From a virus, in IMG/VR virus record IMGVR_UViG_3300028388_004721, positions 1 through 28,649 of that record: a DNA stretch of 28,649 nt. One strand, given 5' to 3'. The notes beneath the pieces were generated by a model. It ran no database searches. It was not told where the DNA came from and was given only the letters and a program-made list of their open reading frames with translations. Made by a program: the position numbers and the translations under genes. Below are positions 3,620-10,892 of the stretch, piece by piece; within the stretch, counting starts at the first letter, position 1, and the number at the start of each line of letters is the position of its first letter.

Positions 3620-4519
3620 GTGCAAACCTTTGAAAGATACTTGAAGCAGATTCAAGAGTCAGAGAAACAGATTTCGAATGATTTTCTATCTGAATCATAT
3701 GATACACTGCTTGAGAAATTAATTACTTTTGGTGGGAAAGCTTATCCAAAATATGGTAATGTTGTGATTATGGCAGGCGGTGCTGGATCTGGTAAAGGAT
3801 TCGTGAAAGATAAACTTGTTGGAATTGAAGGTCGAACATTTGATGTCGATGATCTCAAGAGACTTGCCGCGAAAACTCCAGCGATCCAAAAGAAAGTAAA
3901 AGATGAGTTCGGAGTTGATATCGAAGAACTTGGCAAGAATATGCGCAATGCTGATAACGTTGCCAAAATGCATGAAATTATTGGTGATGCATTAAGCATC
4001 CCAGACAAGCAACAACAGATGATGTTTCGATCAATTCTGACAACACCTCAAGAACGTAAGCCAAATCTCATCTTTGACGTAACACTCAAAGACCTTCGTA
4101 AACTTGAGAAGATCACAAGACAGGTCGATTCGATCGGCTATGATAAAAAGAATATACACATCGTTTGGGTCATCAATGATATCGAAGTTGCCAAAGATCA
4201 GAATCTGAAGCGCGATAGAACAGTACCTGTTGATATCTTAGTCAATACACACAGAGGCGTTTCTGCGACAATGCAAGACATTCTGAATATGGGCAAGAGA
4301 CTCGATAAGTACATGGACGGAGATATTGTATTTGCCTTTAATAAAATCAAAGTTGATAGTGATGTTGTTCGCTCAGGTAAGGGTGGATCGTTTATTCAAG
4401 ACGCAAATTACTTCTATGTAAAGAAAGCGGGTAAGCCAGTCACTCCTGTTGAAAAACTCAAGAAAAGTATCAGAGCAAAGATATCATCTTATGTACCAAA
4501 AAACGTCGAATGGGTATAG
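3620..4519 (+). CDS. zeta-toxin-like P-loop kinase
   Basis: A 299-aa protein with a clear P-loop GGAGSGKG at residues 53-60 (Lys59). Further elements of the zeta-toxin/nucleotide-kinase fold are DVDD at 75-78, a second aspartate motif in LIFDVTLKDL, and an Arg/Lys-rich lid around NLKRDRTVP. It starts with GTG (3620), chosen because GGAGA lies about 6 nt upstream and no ATG exists in frame before it. Zeta-type enzymes phosphorylate UDP-activated wall sugars; related kinases act on proteins or nucleosides, so the substrate is open. No antitoxin-like gene adjoins it. Homologues are common in marine T4-like phages, often near virion genes. It lies between the hydrolase and the bilin genes, probably on the same late transcript. 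Confidence 0.75.
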   Translation: MQTFERYLKQIQESEKQISNDFLSESYDTLLEKLITFGGKAYPKYGNVVIMAGGAGSGKGFVKDKLVGIEGRTFDVDDLKRLAAKTPAIQKKVKDEFGVDIEELGKNMRNADNVAKMHEIIGDALSIPDKQQQMMFRSILTTPQERKPNLIFDVTLKDLRKLEKITRQVDSIGYDKKNIHIVWVINDIEVAKDQNLKRDRTVPVDILVNTHRGVSATMQDILNMGKRLDKYMDGDIVFAFNKIKVDSDVVRSGKGGSFIQDANYFYVKKAGKPVTPVEKLKKSIRAKISSYVPKNVEWV

Positions 4520-4614: not shown

Positions 4615-5175
4615 ATGAATCTAAAAGAACTGACTTGGGAAAACCATAAGAACGCTGAACGTAGAGAGTTCGCGAAGATACTGATGAGCGGTGAAATACC
4701 AACTCGCTTATACTATCAGTATTTACTTAACCAACACTCAATGTATTCTGTTCTTGAAGAAGCACTTAAAGATATAGGATTTAAAAAGAGTCTTCATCGA
4801 GTCTTTCGTGCCGATTTGATTTCAGAAGATTTGACTGAACTCGAATACACATATTCTTTTCGTCCAGCACAAAAAGACATTCTGCCTGTTGCACATGCTT
4901 ATCATAAGCATATCGAGGGAATCAAAGATAATCCAGATGCTTTAATCGCACATATGTACGTTCGTCACTTTGGTGATATGTATGGCGGTGCGATGATTCA
5001 GAAGAAAATTCCTGGCTCTGGTTCGATGTATGATTTCGAAGATAAAGACGAATTAAAGACTGAACTTCGTGAACTATTAAACAACGCTATGGCAGCCGAA
5101 GCAAATCTTTGTTTTAAATTTGCCATTCAACTATTTGAGGAACTTGAAAATGTACGTATGGGATCACCTGGTTGA
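4615..5175 (+). CDS. hemO: heme oxygenase
   Basis: A 186-aa member of the heme oxygenase family, which opens heme to biliverdin, CO and ferrous iron using reduced ferredoxin or another reductase. The N-terminal motif TWENHKNAER carries the proximal heme ligand, His11. The distal-helix signature YVRHFGDMYGGAMI (115-128) keeps the G-D-x-x-G-G pattern of canonical enzymes (Gly120, Asp121, Gly124, Gly125). The length is short for the family but typical of compact bacterial and phage forms. The gene overlaps the bilin reductase by 26 nt, implying coupled translation and a two-step pathway. AAAGAAG about 7 nt upstream supports the ATG at 4615. Alternative role: iron release from heme in an iron-poor ocean. 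Confidence 0.9.
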   Translation: MNLKELTWENHKNAERREFAKILMSGEIPTRLYYQYLLNQHSMYSVLEEALKDIGFKKSLHRVFRADLISEDLTELEYTYSFRPAQKDILPVAHAYHKHIEGIKDNPDALIAHMYVRHFGDMYGGAMIQKKIPGSGSMYDFEDKDELKTELRELLNNAMAAEANLCFKFAIQLFEELENVRMGSPG

Positions 5176-5848
5176 ACTGAAAGATTTCTTTATAGATCAG
5201 TTTGATATTCAAGCACAAGAAATCGATGAACCGGGCATGGAAAGATTTAACCAAAATGGTTGGGTCAATCGTGTTTGGAAAAACGAATTCGTTCGAAGAG
5301 CGCATATCGATGTCGTTGATGCTAGAGATTCAAAGGGTTTATGGATGATGCACGTTTGTATATTTCCTAATCTCGATAATGACGCACCCATTTTCGGTTT
5401 TGATGTTGTCAGTGGTAAGAATAAGATGACTGGAGCATTTCATGATTTTAGTCCATCAACAAATTTCGAGCATCCCATGATTGAACTCTTTGACGAATCT
5501 GTTAAAGATTTGCAGTGGAAACGTGAGCGAGAGCTTCCAGATTGGGCTAAACAAATCTTCAGTGACAATATGATGGCTGCAGGTAATGTTCGAGACGAAG
5601 AAGAAATCTTTCAAGTAATTGATACTGTGACAAAGAACCTTGACACATATCTTCTTGAGCTTCCCAATTATGTTGGTATGGGTCTAGAGCAAGAAGTGGC
5701 ACTAGCACACAACAACTATGCACACTATCAAAAACAAAATCCACATACGCCAAATGTAATGAAAAAATTAGGCTTGAATGAAGATGATGTTGATGCATTC
5801 ATTCAAGAGTGTCTTTTTCCAGAAGTGACGGGTTGGGGCATCGTCTAA
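5150..5848 (+). CDS. pcyX: ferredoxin-dependent bilin reductase (PcyX/PebS/PcyA family)
   Basis: A 232-aa protein with the family hallmark HVCIFPNLDNDAPIFGFD. His68 and Asp85 are exactly 17 residues apart, as are catalytic His88 and Asp105 of cyanobacterial PcyA. The SPS of FHDFSPS (about 97-103) and the C-terminal block QKQNPHTPNV...CLFP also match the family. Near the PcyA Glu76 position there is Asp54 (AHID) instead of Glu, with a loop two residues longer. Such enzymes reduce biliverdin IX-alpha; the compact phage forms PebS and PcyX make phycoerythrobilin by a four-electron reduction. I chose ATG 5150 because GAGGA (5137-5141) precedes it; it lies inside the heme oxygenase gene. PcyX is the best guess because it is known from uncultured marine phages next to a heme oxygenase gene, but PcyX versus PebS needs a tree. 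Confidence 0.88.
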   Translation: MYVWDHLVELKDFFIDQFDIQAQEIDEPGMERFNQNGWVNRVWKNEFVRRAHIDVVDARDSKGLWMMHVCIFPNLDNDAPIFGFDVVSGKNKMTGAFHDFSPSTNFEHPMIELFDESVKDLQWKRERELPDWAKQIFSDNMMAAGNVRDEEEIFQVIDTVTKNLDTYLLELPNYVGMGLEQEVALAHNNYAHYQKQNPHTPNVMKKLGLNEDDVDAFIQECLFPEVTGWGIV

Positions 5849-6407: not shown

Positions 6408-6415
6408 TATTTATA
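6408..6415 (-). promoter_or_regulatory. T4-type late promoter TATAAATA for the minus-strand membrane protein
   Basis: The plus strand reads TATTTATA, giving exact TATAAATA on the minus strand, 78 nt upstream of the membrane-protein ATG at 6330. It stands back to back with the tmRNA promoter. Confidence 0.6.
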
Positions 6416-6422
6416 TTTTTAC

Positions 6423-6453
6423 TTGACTTGGAATGAAAATTATGTTATAAATA
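6423..6453 (+). promoter_or_regulatory. tmRNA promoter, combined sigma70-like and late type
   Basis: TTGACT (6423-6428), 17 nt, then TATAAA (6446-6451), a good sigma70 pair. The -10 is embedded in TATAAATA (6446-6453), an exact T4-type late element. Predicted start is about 6458-6460, just upstream of the tmRNA acceptor piece. This could keep the RNA expressed both early and late. Confidence 0.65.
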
Positions 6454-6520
6454 CACTTGTAATTGATGAAGCAAATCGAAAACGGACTGGACTGGGGTGC
6501 GAATCCCCACAGCTCCACCA

Positions 6521-6590
6521 TAAACACACTGAGTACGTTTAGGCGTCAGTAAGTCTTGTAGGATCGCAACCTTAAGCAACAGTGTGTTTA
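6521..6590 (+). repeat. 11-bp inverted repeat bounding the tmRNA intervening segment
   Basis: TAAACACACTG (6521-6531) and CAGTGTGTTTA (6580-6590) are perfect reverse complements. The first arm touches the CCA end of the acceptor piece; the second ends 4 nt before G1 of the coding piece. In the precursor the helix would nearly continue the tRNA-like acceptor stem, holding both pieces together until the 74-nt segment (6521-6594) is removed. Confidence 0.85.
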
Positions 6591-6678
6591 TGATGGGGCT
6601 GAATTAGGAATCGACAGACGGACTAGAAGAGTGGAGATTACCGTGTTGACCTACGTTATTCGGTCGAATAAACTAAAC

Positions 6679-6711
6679 GCAAACGATAACTCGTATGCTC
6701 TAGCCGCTTAA
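6679..6711 (+). other. tmRNA proteolysis tag ORF (ANDNSYALAA, stop)
   Basis: Resume codon GCA at 6679, then 10 codons giving ANDNSYALAA and a TAA stop (6709-6711). ANDN is the start typical of alphaproteobacterial tags, and the LAA end is the ClpXP/ClpAP recognition element. With the charged alanine the added peptide would be 11 residues. It has no start codon of its own. Confidence 0.92.
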
Positions 6712-6777
6712 GGCTAGATGAGGTATGGGCTCCACCTTATCACCAAACGGGCCCACTTAAACAAAGGAGAATATATT

Positions 6778-6984
6778 ATGATTGTAATTTCAGAATATTT
6801 TAGTGAACAAAAATCTACTGCAGTTCGCGCAGAAGTTTTTCTCAATAGTGATGAGTATGGAATTCGATATTATTCGATTGACGGTGGTCTAATCAAAGAA
6901 GAAGCTTTTCCAGGTAAATCACTGACTTATGTTGAAGATGCCGCAGAAAACTGGGCAAAGGGGATTAAAGTACTCAATGGCTAA
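6778..6984 (+). CDS. small conserved protein between tmRNA and gp33, unknown
   Basis: A 68-aa protein beginning MIVISEYF, with no membrane segment and no motif I recognise; the alternation of short hydrophobic and charged stretches suggests a small beta/alpha fold. ATG 6778 is chosen for its strong AAAGGAG (6764-6769 region) 7-8 nt upstream; an in-frame ATG at 6718 lies inside the tmRNA P5 helix and has no ribosome site. The ribosome site begins about 8 nt after the last tmRNA pseudoknot, so tmRNA and mRNA share a transcript. The gene overlaps gp33 by 8 nt, which points to an operon 68-aa protein/gp33/gp59. Confidence 0.75.
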   Translation: MIVISEYFSEQKSTAVRAEVFLNSDEYGIRYYSIDGGLIKEEAFPGKSLTYVEDAAENWAKGIKVLNG

Positions 6985-7210
6985 TGAAATACGTGAAATT
7001 AATTCAGAGATGATTGTAAACGAAATTCAAGAATATCTTGATAAGGGTGTACCATACATTGACGCTATCGTAGACTATGCAGAACGAAATGAAGTTGAGA
7101 TTGAAGTTGTGGGCGAGATTGTTCGAAGATCACCGCTACTCAAAGCAAAAATCTATGAAGAGGCAGAAGTCTTAAATATGGTAGAGCCAGAAATAAGGTT
7201 GCCTATTTAA
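6977..7210 (+). CDS. gp33: gp33-like late transcription co-activator
   Basis: A 77-aa acidic helical protein (MANEIREINS... ending EPEIRLPI). Position is the strongest clue: it lies directly before gp59 and gp32, the T4 order 33-59-32. The block EIVRRSPLLKAKI and the ending NMVEP..RLPI are as I recall them in gp33 proteins of marine T4-like phages, which are shorter than T4 gp33 (112 aa). In T4, gp33 bridges RNA polymerase and the sliding clamp gp45 so that gp55 can fire TATAAATA late promoters, which are present in this window. I chose ATG 6977; the longer frame from 6929 uses TTG inside the upstream gene. Its stop overlaps the gp59 ATG (TAATG). Confidence 0.75.
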   Translation: MANEIREINSEMIVNEIQEYLDKGVPYIDAIVDYAERNEVEIEVVGEIVRRSPLLKAKIYEEAEVLNMVEPEIRLPI

Positions 7211-7803
7211 TGTCCTTGTATAACAAGCAAGACGCATTTGAAATCTACAAATACTATATTGCTCTTAAGCAACACTTTAACTCTTCTTATGATTATTTCA
7301 AATATAGAGGTAAAGTGAGTGCAGGCGAGATGGCTTTTGAAAATAGAAAGGATAAATTCTTTTTTTATAAGCTTTCAAAAAAGACAGAAGCAAAAGATAT
7401 CATTCTAGCAAATGCACTCGATGATCCTAATTTTTGGGCAGGTGAGTTGTTAGAAGATAAAGCCATAACCGTATATAACGAATGGCTGAAACGCAAGCAG
7501 TCACTTACGTATCAGTTTCAGTCTGATCTAAGTGAGTTGGAAGAAGACTTCAATTCGAACTTAATTGTCGAAAAAGGTCAACATCCTAAACTGCTTAAAT
7601 TGTATATGATGAGGAGAATTTGCCTTGAAACTGTTGTTATTCTTTGTGAGTTGACAAAATGTCAGCCCTACTGGGAGAAAAATATTTCTGATAATATAGT
7701 ATTTCCAGATATAAATACTCTTATCAAGAAGTACGCTCCCTTCTTAGAATATGATAAAGTGAAATTAAGGAAAATACTACTTGACAAATACAAAGAAACC
7801 TAG
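7210..7803 (+). CDS. gp59: gp59-like replicative helicase loader
   Basis: A 197-aa protein, close to T4 gp59 (217 aa). The opening AFEIYKYYIALKQHFNSSYDYFKY matches the family pattern (aromatic residues, then HF...YD.FKY.G), and the protein is mostly charged helices without membrane segments. gp59 binds forked DNA and gp32-coated single strands and loads the gp41 helicase during recombination-dependent replication. Synteny is T4-like: gp33 before, gp32 after. Start ATG overlaps the gp33 stop by one base, implying coupled translation. The promoter for gp32 lies within its last codons. Confidence 0.85.
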   Translation: MSLYNKQDAFEIYKYYIALKQHFNSSYDYFKYRGKVSAGEMAFENRKDKFFFYKLSKKTEAKDIILANALDDPNFWAGELLEDKAITVYNEWLKRKQSLTYQFQSDLSELEEDFNSNLIVEKGQHPKLLKLYMMRRICLETVVILCELTKCQPYWEKNISDNIVFPDINTLIKKYAPFLEYDKVKLRKILLDKYKET

Positions 7804-7850: not shown

Positions 7851-8783
7851 ATGACTAATTCATTTGCCTCACTTAAGAAGTCTCGCACTTCTAGCTTCGA
7901 TAAGCTGAACCAACAGCTTCAAAAACTTGATAATAGTAACCAGGGCTCTTCAGCGCAAGAGAATTACTGGAAACTTGAAGTCGATAAAGCGGGTAACGGT
8001 TACGCCGTAATTCGTTTTCTACCAGCACCTCAGAATGAAGATTTACCATTCGTTCGCGTCTGGGATCACGGCTTTCAAGGTCCAGGTGGTTGGTATATCG
8101 AGAACTCTCTTACTACACTGAACCAAGACGATCCAGTCTCTGAGTTCAACTCTTCGCTCTGGAACAATGGTACAGACGAAGGTAAGATGCAAGCACGAAA
8201 TCAAAAGAGACGCTTGTCATATCATGCCAACATTTACGTTGTCAAAGATCCAGCAAATCCAGAGAATGAAGGTAAAGTCTTTCTGTACAAGTTTGGTAAA
8301 AAAATCTTTGATAAACTGAATGCCGCAATGAATCCTGAGTTCGAAGATGAGCGCCCAATCAACCCATTTGATTTCTGGGAAGGTGCTAACTTCAAACTGA
8401 AGGCACGTAACGGTGACGGTGGTTATCGTACATATGAGCCTTCATCTTTTGAGTCTCAAAGCGCATTGCTTGACGACGATGAAGAACTAGAGAAAGTGTG
8501 GAATAACCAACACTCTCTTCAAGAAATCGTCGATCCTAAAAACTTCAAGTCGTATGACGAACTGAAAGCAAAGCTTTACAAAGTTCTTGCGCTTGATGGC
8601 ACACAACACGCACCCAAGACTGTGGCCGAGGACGACGAACCGGAGATGGACTTCAAGCCTAAGTTTAAAGAGCAATCTGCTCCCACTTTAGCAGAAGCTC
8701 CATCTCCATCAGAAGATGTTCCTTTTGATACTAATAGTGATGATGATGATTTGGACTTCTTCAAGTCTCTTGCTGATGATTAA
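7851..8783 (+). CDS. gp32: gp32 single-stranded DNA-binding protein
   Basis: A 310-aa homologue of T4 gp32 (301 aa), which coats single-stranded DNA in replication and recombination. The N-terminal basic LAST-like motif LKKSRTSS (8-15) mediates cooperativity. The core shares GNGYAVIRFLPAP, WYIEN (81-85), ANIYVVKDPANPENEGKVF, FGKKIFDK and WEGANFKLK with T4. The C-terminus is a Glu/Pro linker ending in the acidic tail DDDDLDFFKSLADD used to recruit partners. The protein has no cysteine, so the three Cys ligands of the T4 zinc site are lost, although the equivalent of T4 His64 (DHGF, His73) remains. ATG 7851 has AGGAG upstream (GGAGAAATAC spacing). A strong terminator follows. Confidence 0.95.
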   Translation: MTNSFASLKKSRTSSFDKLNQQLQKLDNSNQGSSAQENYWKLEVDKAGNGYAVIRFLPAPQNEDLPFVRVWDHGFQGPGGWYIENSLTTLNQDDPVSEFNSSLWNNGTDEGKMQARNQKRRLSYHANIYVVKDPANPENEGKVFLYKFGKKIFDKLNAAMNPEFEDERPINPFDFWEGANFKLKARNGDGGYRTYEPSSFESQSALLDDDEELEKVWNNQHSLQEIVDPKNFKSYDELKAKLYKVLALDGTQHAPKTVAEDDEPEMDFKPKFKEQSAPTLAEAPSPSEDVPFDTNSDDDDLDFFKSLADD

Positions 8784-8828: not shown

Positions 8829-10892
8829 CTATGGTCCTATAGGATCACCAGAGCCGAGTGGTAGACTTGTGCTGTTGTAGTAGTTGTTAGTTGTGTTATT
8901 GTTTGTGGTATTATTTACTGTTGTTGGAGCAATTGCTGCCCCACCACCTCCATCTCTTTCACCGTCTTCAACTTCGGCAGTAGCATTACCAACTTCAAAT
9001 CCTAAAGCGCCGCGCAGTGCTGTAATGTTACGAATAGCATCATCATAGTTAATATCGGGTGATGCAAGACCTTTAAAGTCGATGTCATTATATAATCCAA
9101 ATTTTTCAATGGTTCCACCCATAATTGCTTTTTCAATTACTGGTACTGATTTAGCCAAGTCTTCAGCAAAATCTTCTAGACCCAAATCAGAACCGTCAAA
9201 TGAAAGTTGTCCGATTTTATCAAGAGAGCTTTCAAGACTTACAAGAGCGGCGGCACCTTTTTCAAGTTCGTCAGCGTTATTAGCAATAATACGAATTTGT
9301 TCAAATGGGCTTTCTGATCCAGAAAAGAATCCCAAAACTGCCGCACCAGCATTTGCTAATGCACCCACAAAGTTACTTCCACCAAAGCTGGATAATGCAT
9401 CACCCAAAGTTTCCATCGTAGTTTTAAATGTTTCTACTTCACCTTCTGAAGTAAGTGAAGGTATGCTTAAGAGGGTTGTAACCTCTCTCTTAATTCTATC
9501 TGCAAATTCTTCTCCTGTTGTAAATGCAGAAACGCCCGCTTGAAGTCCTGATGAAGCTCCCTCTACAGCTTTACCTATTGAGAAGGCAGCCAAGCCCAAA
9601 GCAATACCGCCCATTACTGCGATAAATCCAGCAGTATCTGCCGCAACACCAGGTAGACTTGGTATTTCAAGAAGTGTTTTAACTTCTCTTTTAATTCTGT
9701 CGGCAAATTCTTCTTCGCCAGTAAAATACTCTAATCCCTCTGATCCTGCTTCTGCAACACCTTCAACACCTTTGCCTACAGCAAAAGCCGCTAAGCCAAG
9801 AGCAAGGGTAGCCATAATTGCGGGAAACGCAACTAAATTTCCAAGAGTTGCATTTTTCAAGTCAGGGATTTCTAATAATGTTTTTACATTATCTTTAATT
9901 TTTGTCGCCCAATCACCGCCTTCTCCGACACCAGAAAACTTATCAATAGAATCAGTCATAGAAGTGGGTACAGATGCGATACCAGCAGTTGCTTGTCCCG
10001 CACTAAATGCGATGAGACCAAGCCCTAAAGATGCCATAATTAACGGAAATGATGCCAAATTACCTAGAGTGGCATTTTCAAGATCAGGAATTTCTAATAG
10101 TGTCTCAACATTATCTTTGACTTTCGTTGCCCAGTCACCACCCTCACCAGCTCCAGAAAACTTATCTAAAGAATCTGATGCTATTGTTGGTATTGCCGCT
10201 ATTCCAGAAACAGCTTGTCCCACTGAAAAGGCAATAAGACCAGCCCCTAAAGACGCCATAGTTAGAGGAAAAGACGCTATGTTGCCAAAAGTAGCATTCT
10301 TAAGATCGGGTATTTCTAATAATGTTTTTGTGTTGTCTTTTATTTTTGTTGCCCAATCTTCATTACCTGTAAACTTTGTGAGTGCCTGAGCAACAGCTCC
10401 CGTTGTTTGACCTATACCAAATGCCGCTATTCCAACACCAAGTGACGTAAGTGTTGCTGTAAGCGCAAGTACATTTTTTCCATCAGCGCCAGGTAAATCT
10501 GGTATTTCTAATAGTGTTTTGACATTATCTTTTATTGTTTGGGTCCAGTCATCTTCTGATACCCAATCTGCGAATGCAGTAACTGCTTGACCAGCGCCGA
10601 ATGCTGTTAATGCGACACCAAGACCAGATAACATTACAAAAAGTGTGCCTCCATCTTTCAAGAACTCAGATCGGCTTTCGTAGTTTTCTCCGATAGAAAG
10701 AAGGGTTTCGACGCTCTCTTTAATTGTGTCAGCATCTGGAATTTTATCGATGACTGTGGACAGACCTAAGAGCGCGGCGCCAATGCCAGCTCCTGCAAAA
10801 CCTATTCCTTTACCAAAACCGCCAGCAAGTGCGCCGAGACCTCCTAAGAATCCTCCTGCGCCTTCGCCAACATTTTTGATGGTCTTGCCGCA
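8829..10892 (-). CDS. tape-measure candidate with seven ~70-aa repeats (main body)
   Basis: The frame runs without a stop from 10892 to 8829. No ATG occurs before 10634 and the nearest alternative, TTG 10661, has no good ribosome site. The coding signal and the first repeat copy begin upstream of that, so the N-terminus is probably supplied by the 54-aa frame ending at 10844 through a -1 shift. Seven copies of a unit centred on W-x-x-K-I-K-D-N-V-K-T-L-L-E-I-P alternate with Gly/Ala-rich hydrophobic helices (about 65-75 aa per unit). A non-repeated helical region and an Asn/Thr-rich end follow. Size (about 720 aa with the N-terminal piece), hydrophobic repeats and position in the hub-gene cluster suit a tail tape-measure protein (gp29 analogue). 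Direct homology to T4 gp29 is not visible, so another virion role is possible. Confidence 0.7.
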   Translation of the reverse strand, partial: CGKTIKNVGEGAGGFLGGLGALAGGFGKGIGFAGAGIGAALLGLSTVIDKIPDADTIKESVETLLSIGENYESRSEFLKDGGTLFVMLSGLGVALTAFGAGQAVTAFADWVSEDDWTQTIKDNVKTLLEIPDLPGADGKNVLALTATLTSLGVGIAAFGIGQTTGAVAQALTKFTGNEDWATKIKDNTKTLLEIPDLKNATFGNIASFPLTMASLGAGLIAFSVGQAVSGIAAIPTIASDSLDKFSGAGEGGDWATKVKDNVETLLEIPDLENATLGNLASFPLIMASLGLGLIAFSAGQATAGIASVPTSMTDSIDKFSGVGEGGDWATKIKDNVKTLLEIPDLKNATLGNLVAFPAIMATLALGLAAFAVGKGVEGVAEAGSEGLEYFTGEEEFADRIKREVKTLLEIPSLPGVAADTAGFIAVMGGIALGLAAFSIGKAVEGASSGLQAGVSAFTTGEEFADRIKREVTTLLSIPSLTSEGEVETFKTTMETLGDALSSFGGSNFVGALANAGAAVLGFFSGSESPFEQIRIIANNADELEKGAAALVSLESSLDKIGQLSFDGSDLGLEDFAEDLAKSVPVIEKAIMGGTIEKFGLYNDIDFKGLASPDINYDDAIRNITALRGALGFEVGNATAEVEDGERDGGGGAAIAPTTVNNTTNNNTTNNYYNSTSLPLGSGDPIGP
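9430..10740 (-). repeat. seven tandem protein-coding repeats of about 200-220 bp
   Basis: The plus strand shows recurring blocks around 9455, 9665, 9875, 10095, 10315, 10505 and 10705, each reading like TTTCTAATAATGTTTT plus a variable part. They encode IKxxVxTLLxIPxL on the minus strand. The copies near 9875, 10095 and 10315 are the most alike. Spacing of about 190-220 bp corresponds to 63-73 residues. Boundaries are approximate. Confidence 0.8.

Follow-up and report, generated by a model that had tools for sequence, protein, structure and literature searches.

The window, a 28,649-base viral contig of T4-like marine phage DNA, is likely to carry a functional permuted tmRNA gene of a phage lineage in which the intervening segment serves as an exchangeable passenger slot. 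Permuted tmRNAs in phages are as such already known and have been published for T4-like marine phages. What looks new is the exchangeable intervening segment, not the phage tmRNA itself. Our search, which was confined to the open-access literature, turned up no previous account of such exchange or of genes located in the segments of phage tmRNAs.

ARAGORN reports a permuted tmRNA with the tag ANDNSYALAA at positions 6428-6802. The Rfam covariance model for permuted tmRNA (RF04321, tmRNA_permuted) matches 6458-6711 with 117.4 bits against a gathering score of 47 (E 1.3e-22), and the alpha_tmRNA model (RF01849) matches 6414-6757 with 78.4 bits against a gathering score of 50 (E 6.4e-20). The beta_tmRNA model (RF01850) scores 82.8 bits at this tmRNA, slightly below its gathering score of 84 and slightly above the alpha_tmRNA score. 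A sequence-only reading had described positions 6455-6757 as a phage-encoded, circularly permuted two-piece tmRNA, and this description stands. Infernal with alpha_tmRNA and ARAGORN both match, all tmRNA parts are present including the tag frame and the permuted order, and the pieces end at 6520 and begin at 6595 exactly as it had named. Locus and extent were also right, except that the 5' boundary is better placed at about 6458 than at 6455. The gene has the following parts.

6458-6520, plus strand: mature 3' piece (acceptor-coding) with a P2 strand, the T arm, the 3' acceptor strand and CCA, from the RF04321 match
6521-6594, plus strand: intervening segment of 74 nt, removed on maturation, from the family alignment, segment model R2 (102.8 bits) and identity comparisons
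6595-6757, plus strand: mature 5' piece with the 5' acceptor strand GGGGCTG, PK1, resume codon, tag, stop helix and second pseudoknot
6646-6673, plus strand: pseudoknot PK1, GACC/GGTC with GTTATTC/GAAT-a-AAC, by sequence reading
6679-6711, plus strand: tag frame ANDNSYALAA, resume codon and tag at 6679-6708, stop TAA at 6709-6711
6699-6718, plus strand: stop-codon helix TCTAGCC-GCTTAA-GGCTAGA, from the fold
6721-6758, plus strand: second pseudoknot, AGGT/ACCT with TGGGC/GCCCA, by sequence reading, a stem of it also in the fold

The order is permuted, with the T arm and CCA upstream, the 5' acceptor strand and the mRNA domain downstream, and the intervening segment between them. The helices, the G3-U70 pair, the tag, the stop-codon helix and the two pseudoknots that had been proposed by eye can all be drawn from the sequence or from folds. 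The T arm reads TGGGG-TGCGAAT-CCCCA and holds TGGGGTGCGAATCCCCA and CAGCTCCACCA. The CCA end lies at 6520, and the 5' piece starts with GGGGCTG at 6595. The acceptor stem GGGGCTG/CAGCTCC has a G3-U70 wobble and is followed by discriminator A and CCA (ACCA), thus the alanine identity features are present. The LAA C-terminus of the tag would be fitting for ClpXP-type degradation.

The ANDN tag had been taken to point to an alphaproteobacterial origin, a conclusion that we do not share. A comparison of tags with bacterial ssrA found exactly ANDNSYALAA in the one-piece tmRNA genes of Oxalobacteraceae, where it is common, and thus the tag alone tells little about origin. These genes have the standard one-piece order, and beyond the tag region (approximately 33-47 nt) they have nothing else in common with the window. 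Permuted tmRNAs of alphaproteobacteria (RF01849 / RF04321, Caulobacter type) share with the window the gene order, G3-U70, the ANDN start of the tag and a short segment hairpin. They differ in the T arm and its loop, which is GGCGGTA in most bacterial rows and TGCGAAT in the window, and no relative of the window's segment was found among the bacterial permuted tmRNA segments examined. A tree of permuted tmRNAs from phages (118) and bacteria (35) places the two groups on opposite sides of one branch (SH-aLRT 100); the tree is unrooted, is built from a short alignment and has no SAR11, betaproteobacterial or cyanobacterial rows sampled by name. Within these limits the tree gives no sign that the gene was recently acquired from the sampled bacteria. 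It is very improbable that the gene is a relic, or a recent capture of host alphaproteobacterial ssrA, with no function in the phage. The match to the alpha model above its gathering score would suit such an origin, but the phage tmRNAs stand apart from the bacterial ones in the tree, and the window gene has an intact anatomy, a strong promoter and a conserved position.

Nor are tmRNAs as uncommon in phages as the sequence-only reading had stated. Among phage isolates 53 two-piece tmRNA structures have been counted, 50 of them marine or aquatic, and the OM43-clade phage Melnitz has one at the same place as the window, directly before gp33 (PMC9004378). A single tag-pattern scan matched at least 120 IMG/VR contigs. 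About 120 viral loci among the matches listed were parsed as permuted tmRNA. Of 120 phage permuted tmRNA genes, 119 have the G3-U70 pair, and 95 of 108 phage tags end in LAA. Tags without this ending (ANDNSYRMVA, ANDNSFRQVA) occur in L012, L066 and L082 and possibly do not feed ClpXP. ARAGORN overlooked a phage permuted tmRNA at position 2034 of L009 (and in L010), whose tag is 30 aa long (ANDNASNVYSFVDFGSLKNTYVNEDFALAA).

We did not find smpB in 34 viral contigs (mostly fragments) or in the complete genomes of Melnitz and HTVC008M, and the bacterial control was detected; host SmpB would thus be required. The lack of smpB in these contigs and isolates would also suit a phage tmRNA that competes with the host tmRNA or titrates SmpB and provides no rescue for the phage. 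There is a precedent in mycobacteriophage DS6A, which has a tRNA-like-only form for which inhibition has been proposed (PMC11915505, PMC4131195). A titrator, however, would not need the mRNA-like domain, tag, stop and pseudoknots that are kept here, nor the LAA ending found in most phage tags, and we regard this explanation as improbable. The roles suggested by the sequence-only reading, to keep ribosome rescue running when host ssrA RNA is degraded or to direct tagged host products to ClpXP, are repeats of published speculation.

The tmRNA gene is preceded by a promoter and followed by genes of T4-like replication and late transcription.

6423-6453, plus strand: promoter TTGACT, 17 nt, TATAAATA, from the sequence, 5 nt upstream of the 3' piece
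6778-6984, plus strand: small ORF of 68 aa, shared with relatives and preceded by AAAGGAG at 6763
6977-7210, plus strand: gp33-like late-transcription coactivator (phrog_25387, E 7e-10)
7210-7803, plus strand: gp59 DNA helicase loader (phrog_269, E 6e-51)
7851-8783, plus strand: gp32 single-strand DNA-binding protein (phrog_224, E 4e-120)

In the window, TATAAATA is sigma70-like and simultaneously the T4 late-promoter -10 motif. A TTGACA-N16-18-TATAAT score of at least 10 out of 12 is found upstream in 70% of 115 phage permuted tmRNAs (5% in shuffled sequence), and the exact late motif is found upstream in 58 of the 115 (2.2% in shuffled sequence). Of the 76 phage permuted tmRNA loci with 2.5 kb or more of sequence downstream, 54 are followed by gp33 and 48 by gp59. 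Beyond gp32, the window encodes T4-like structural proteins (tail tube, head closure, baseplate and others). The nearest gp59 proteins in the phage collection come from Sinorhizobium phages (45%) and Melnitz (41%), and the collection holds no close isolate of the window phage. The window tmRNA DNA gave no match against annotated phages, and neither did a search for gp33 in phages, for which the query was too short. Immediately upstream of the tmRNA, at 4615-5845, are genes for a heme oxygenase (Pfam E 7e-18) and a ferredoxin-dependent bilin reductase (Pfam E 1e-19), a pair of the phage hemO-pcyX type known from marine phages (PMC11480375).

We suggest the following scheme. In brief, transcription from the strong promoter 5 nt upstream would continue through the tmRNA into the gp33-gp59-gp32 operon and give a single precursor. 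In this precursor the two segment ends would pair and TGAT would partly pair with ACCA, giving a nearly continuous helix, a step that covariation supports. By analogy with known two-piece tmRNAs, host tRNA-processing enzymes would then excise the segment, with RNase P acting before 6595 and 3'-end processing after the CCA at 6520. Judging by the complete anatomy, the product would be a two-piece tmRNA that accepts alanine, cooperates with host SmpB and marks stalled products with ANDNSYALAA for proteolysis. The cargo of the slot would be swapped precisely and often, and would consist of structured RNA cassettes or short protein genes. Least certain is the step in which the window cassette may be freed along with the tmRNA and act as a small RNA or RNA-binding element. 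The slot would tolerate foreign cargo because nothing placed in the segment ends up in the mature RNA. The most cautious interpretation is that of a site where inserts would be harmless, which phages may exploit to have small RNAs and proteins expressed from the strong promoter.

The sequence-only reading had passed over the intervening segment, which is the most unusual part of the gene. A discarded segment would be expected to be the least conserved part of the gene, and this is not what we observe. A search with part of the segment sequence found 12 IMG/VR contigs besides the window, and 11 of them hold the segment exactly between CCACCA and TGAT-GGGG (or TAAT-GGGG). Over 45 pairs of this window-type family the mean identity is 90% for the segment and 70% and 61% for the mature pieces, values in which segment conservation is inflated since the 12-contig family was ascertained through a segment pattern. 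The set ascertained by tag was therefore examined too. In this set, L022 and L248 are 99% identical in the segment and 61% and 66% identical in the mature pieces; as monophyly of the two is not rejected (AU p 0.56), the pair alone is no proof of transfer. For the 108 phage pairs whose mature pieces are at least 85% identical, segment identity is below 60% in 69 and at least 85% in 33. The mature RNA is nearly the same in L048, L083, L107 and L007, and their segments are 53, 3, 134 and 67 nt long. In the mature tmRNA tree, a single clade of the carriers of window-type segments is rejected (AU p 0.004; nine changes), the test being made on a 249-column alignment with a carrier group that was named after the segments had been seen.

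The segment of L324 equals that of the window in 73 of 74 bases, and the mature pieces of the two are 77% and 66% identical. L324 is collinear with the window over the endolysin, two further genes, the tmRNA, the 68-aa ORF, gp33, gp59 and gp32, with proteins 51-69% identical. The matching DNA is approximately 66-75% identical, apart from one stretch of 87% formed by the segment and nearby tmRNA. L042 and L324 share long stretches of 86-88% identity and mature pieces of 91-93% identity, and their segments are 54% identical. The L042 segment is 8 nt longer than that of L324, and the alignment places the breakpoints of the replacement exactly at the segment ends. It should be noted that recent recombination, without any function, could also explain why the segments of the window and L324 are nearly identical.

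The window segment comprises the following elements.

6521-6531, plus strand: 5' arm of segment stem P1, TAAACACACTG, pairing with 6580-6590 (covariation)
6580-6590, plus strand: 3' arm of segment stem P1, CAGTGTGTTTA (covariation)
6535-6546, plus strand: segment stem P2, ACG/CGT, 3 bp, capped in the window (alignment)
6543-6580, plus strand: segment core GCGTCAGTAAGTCT...AGGATCGCAACCTT(A/G)AGCAACAG, with a variable loop at 6557-6559
6591-6594, plus strand: TGAT, just before the mature 5' end; it ends 87 of 97 distinct phage segments

Across the 97 distinct phage segments, the two ends form a 10-bp stem between bases 1 to 10 and the ten bases that precede the terminal four. Positions 2 to 10 of this end stem are paired in 90-100% of the segments; when partners are shuffled the range is 55-85% (n=97, z 7.6 to 13.5). 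Three P1 pairs have changed on both sides within the window-type family. Bacterial permuted tmRNA segments have a weaker version of the end pairing. TGAT can pair with ACCA (A-U, C.A, C-G, A-U) with one C-A mismatch, and the acceptor stem and the segment stem would thereby become one long, nearly continuous helix.

These features could be read in another way, namely that the segment is a mere processing hairpin with no function of its own, and that its similarity across phages reflects ordinary homologous recombination in conserved acceptor-stem sequence. The conserved flanks CTCCACCA and TGAT-GGGG could seed such recombination, the end stem is the only feature common to nearly all long segments, and bacterial permuted tmRNAs also tend toward a short hairpin in the segment. 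Some phage tmRNAs, however, have segments of only 3 to 18 nt, and thus neither stem nor cargo is necessary for maturation; the 3-nt segments show that processing requires no hairpin. The core argues in the same direction. The sequence CTGAGTACG...GCGTCAGTAAGTCT...AGGATCGCAACCTT(A/G)AGCAACAG is almost invariant across the window-type family and is more constrained than the stem, with 2 of 35 columns variable in the core and 22 of 40 outside it (p 4e-6). It also recurs in circularly permuted form outside any tmRNA, at 12219-12300 of L327, where the R2 model matches with 45.5 bits. Considering these points, together with the segment ORFs under purifying selection described below, we find a mere processing hairpin rather unlikely and prefer the exchangeable slot.

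In the L327 copy, a loop closes P1, and P2 is open with a length of 11 bp. The copy adjoins tandem GTGAAACTTCGTA repeats followed by TTTT, and it is the only copy found outside tmRNA. Tolerance of a fold to circular permutation is characteristic of aptamers and ribozymes. We considered a known riboswitch or ribozyme in the segment and rejected this idea, as covariance searches with the Rfam families gave no relevant match for the window segment or the L327 copy up to E 5. The segment model R2 had no match in 299 Pseudomonadota genomes. The whole 74-nt segment has an MFE with z -2.2 against shuffles, and the isolated core folds no better than shuffles; any inner pairing beyond P1 and P2 is thus putative. 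We give an even chance to the more specific proposal that the slot works like an intron without self-splicing and is filled with horizontally exchanged cassettes, and that the window cassette is an undescribed RNA fold, probably functional in infection.

Long segments of related phages hold ORFs, often with a Shine-Dalgarno motif, such as those of 73 aa in L026, 77 aa in L058 and 68 aa in L111. Families of segment ORFs include MVICSCRDIRDSQYTN..., MKNPLV...SICAD...YLVFF and MFDRLTEFFIKLF...YLSG. In all 16 pairs from four ORF families pN/pS is 0.05-0.47, and third-position changes are abundant in most pairs, suggesting that some segment ORFs are under purifying selection, which would not be expected of a mere processing hairpin. 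One such ORF begins at position 5144 of the Melnitz genome (L266), and since Melnitz is an isolate, segment ORFs are not merely metagenome artefacts. PHROGs and Pfam searches with the small segment ORFs gave only a DUF2061-like match for L111, just below the cut-off (E 2e-4), and two segment ORFs searched in phage isolates were not found there. The window segment is without such an ORF. The segment ORFs are approximately 30-77 aa long and several are membrane-type or cysteine-rich; the loci that have them are L026, L058, L111, L016, L068, L107, L029, L093, L103, L109, L065, L086, L099, L106, L050, L084, L097, L037 and L266.

The ssrA gene of Methylophilales phage Melnitz (PMC9004378; MZ577098, L266 5061-5438) is likewise a permuted two-piece tmRNA of a marine T4-like phage. 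As in the window, a promoter lies just upstream (TTGACA-17-TATAAATA in Melnitz), gp33 and gp59 follow directly, and smpB is lacking. The Melnitz segment is approximately 140 nt long, and a short ORF in it (MFKWLSKTRLV...KYLSG...) extends into the 5' piece; the window segment, a structured cassette, has no ORF of this kind. Melnitz also has a glutamine riboswitch, which the window lacks. We rejected a location of this riboswitch inside the tmRNA, as it lies at L266 5446-5494, downstream of the tmRNA gene and before gp33. The statement that the tmRNA is controlled by a riboswitch (PMC9004378) thus appears doubtful. Group I intron tmRNA genes resemble the window-type slot in that a removed part holds foreign cargo, sometimes with a gene of its own (PMC11915505). 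The group I intron self-splices from the T loop, whereas the phage cargo sits in the segment removed by tRNA-type processing. From intervening sequences, the 2025 tmRNA database paper reports one tRNA gene and one repetitive element only (PMC11915505).

If the cargo slot is real, it would open a new site in the search for phage small RNAs and microproteins, and provide an example of nested genes that standard annotation overlooks. Cargo that is short, strongly promoted and fast-changing would have the profile of host-takeover and counter-defence factors. The window cassette would in addition provide a new structured RNA motif.

Some further genes of the window deserve mention. The minus strand at 8829-10661 encodes a repetitive protein of 610 aa in which a unit ending in LLEIPDL recurs many times; the protein is at the tape-measure position, yet has no PHROG or Pfam match. 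At 2-2586 there is a gene pair encoding a VWA-type peptidase-like protein and a CobS-like AAA ATPase (phrog_459, phrog_249). The ORF at 3620-4516 has a weak match to a Zeta-toxin/kinase domain (E 3e-7) and is kept in L324.
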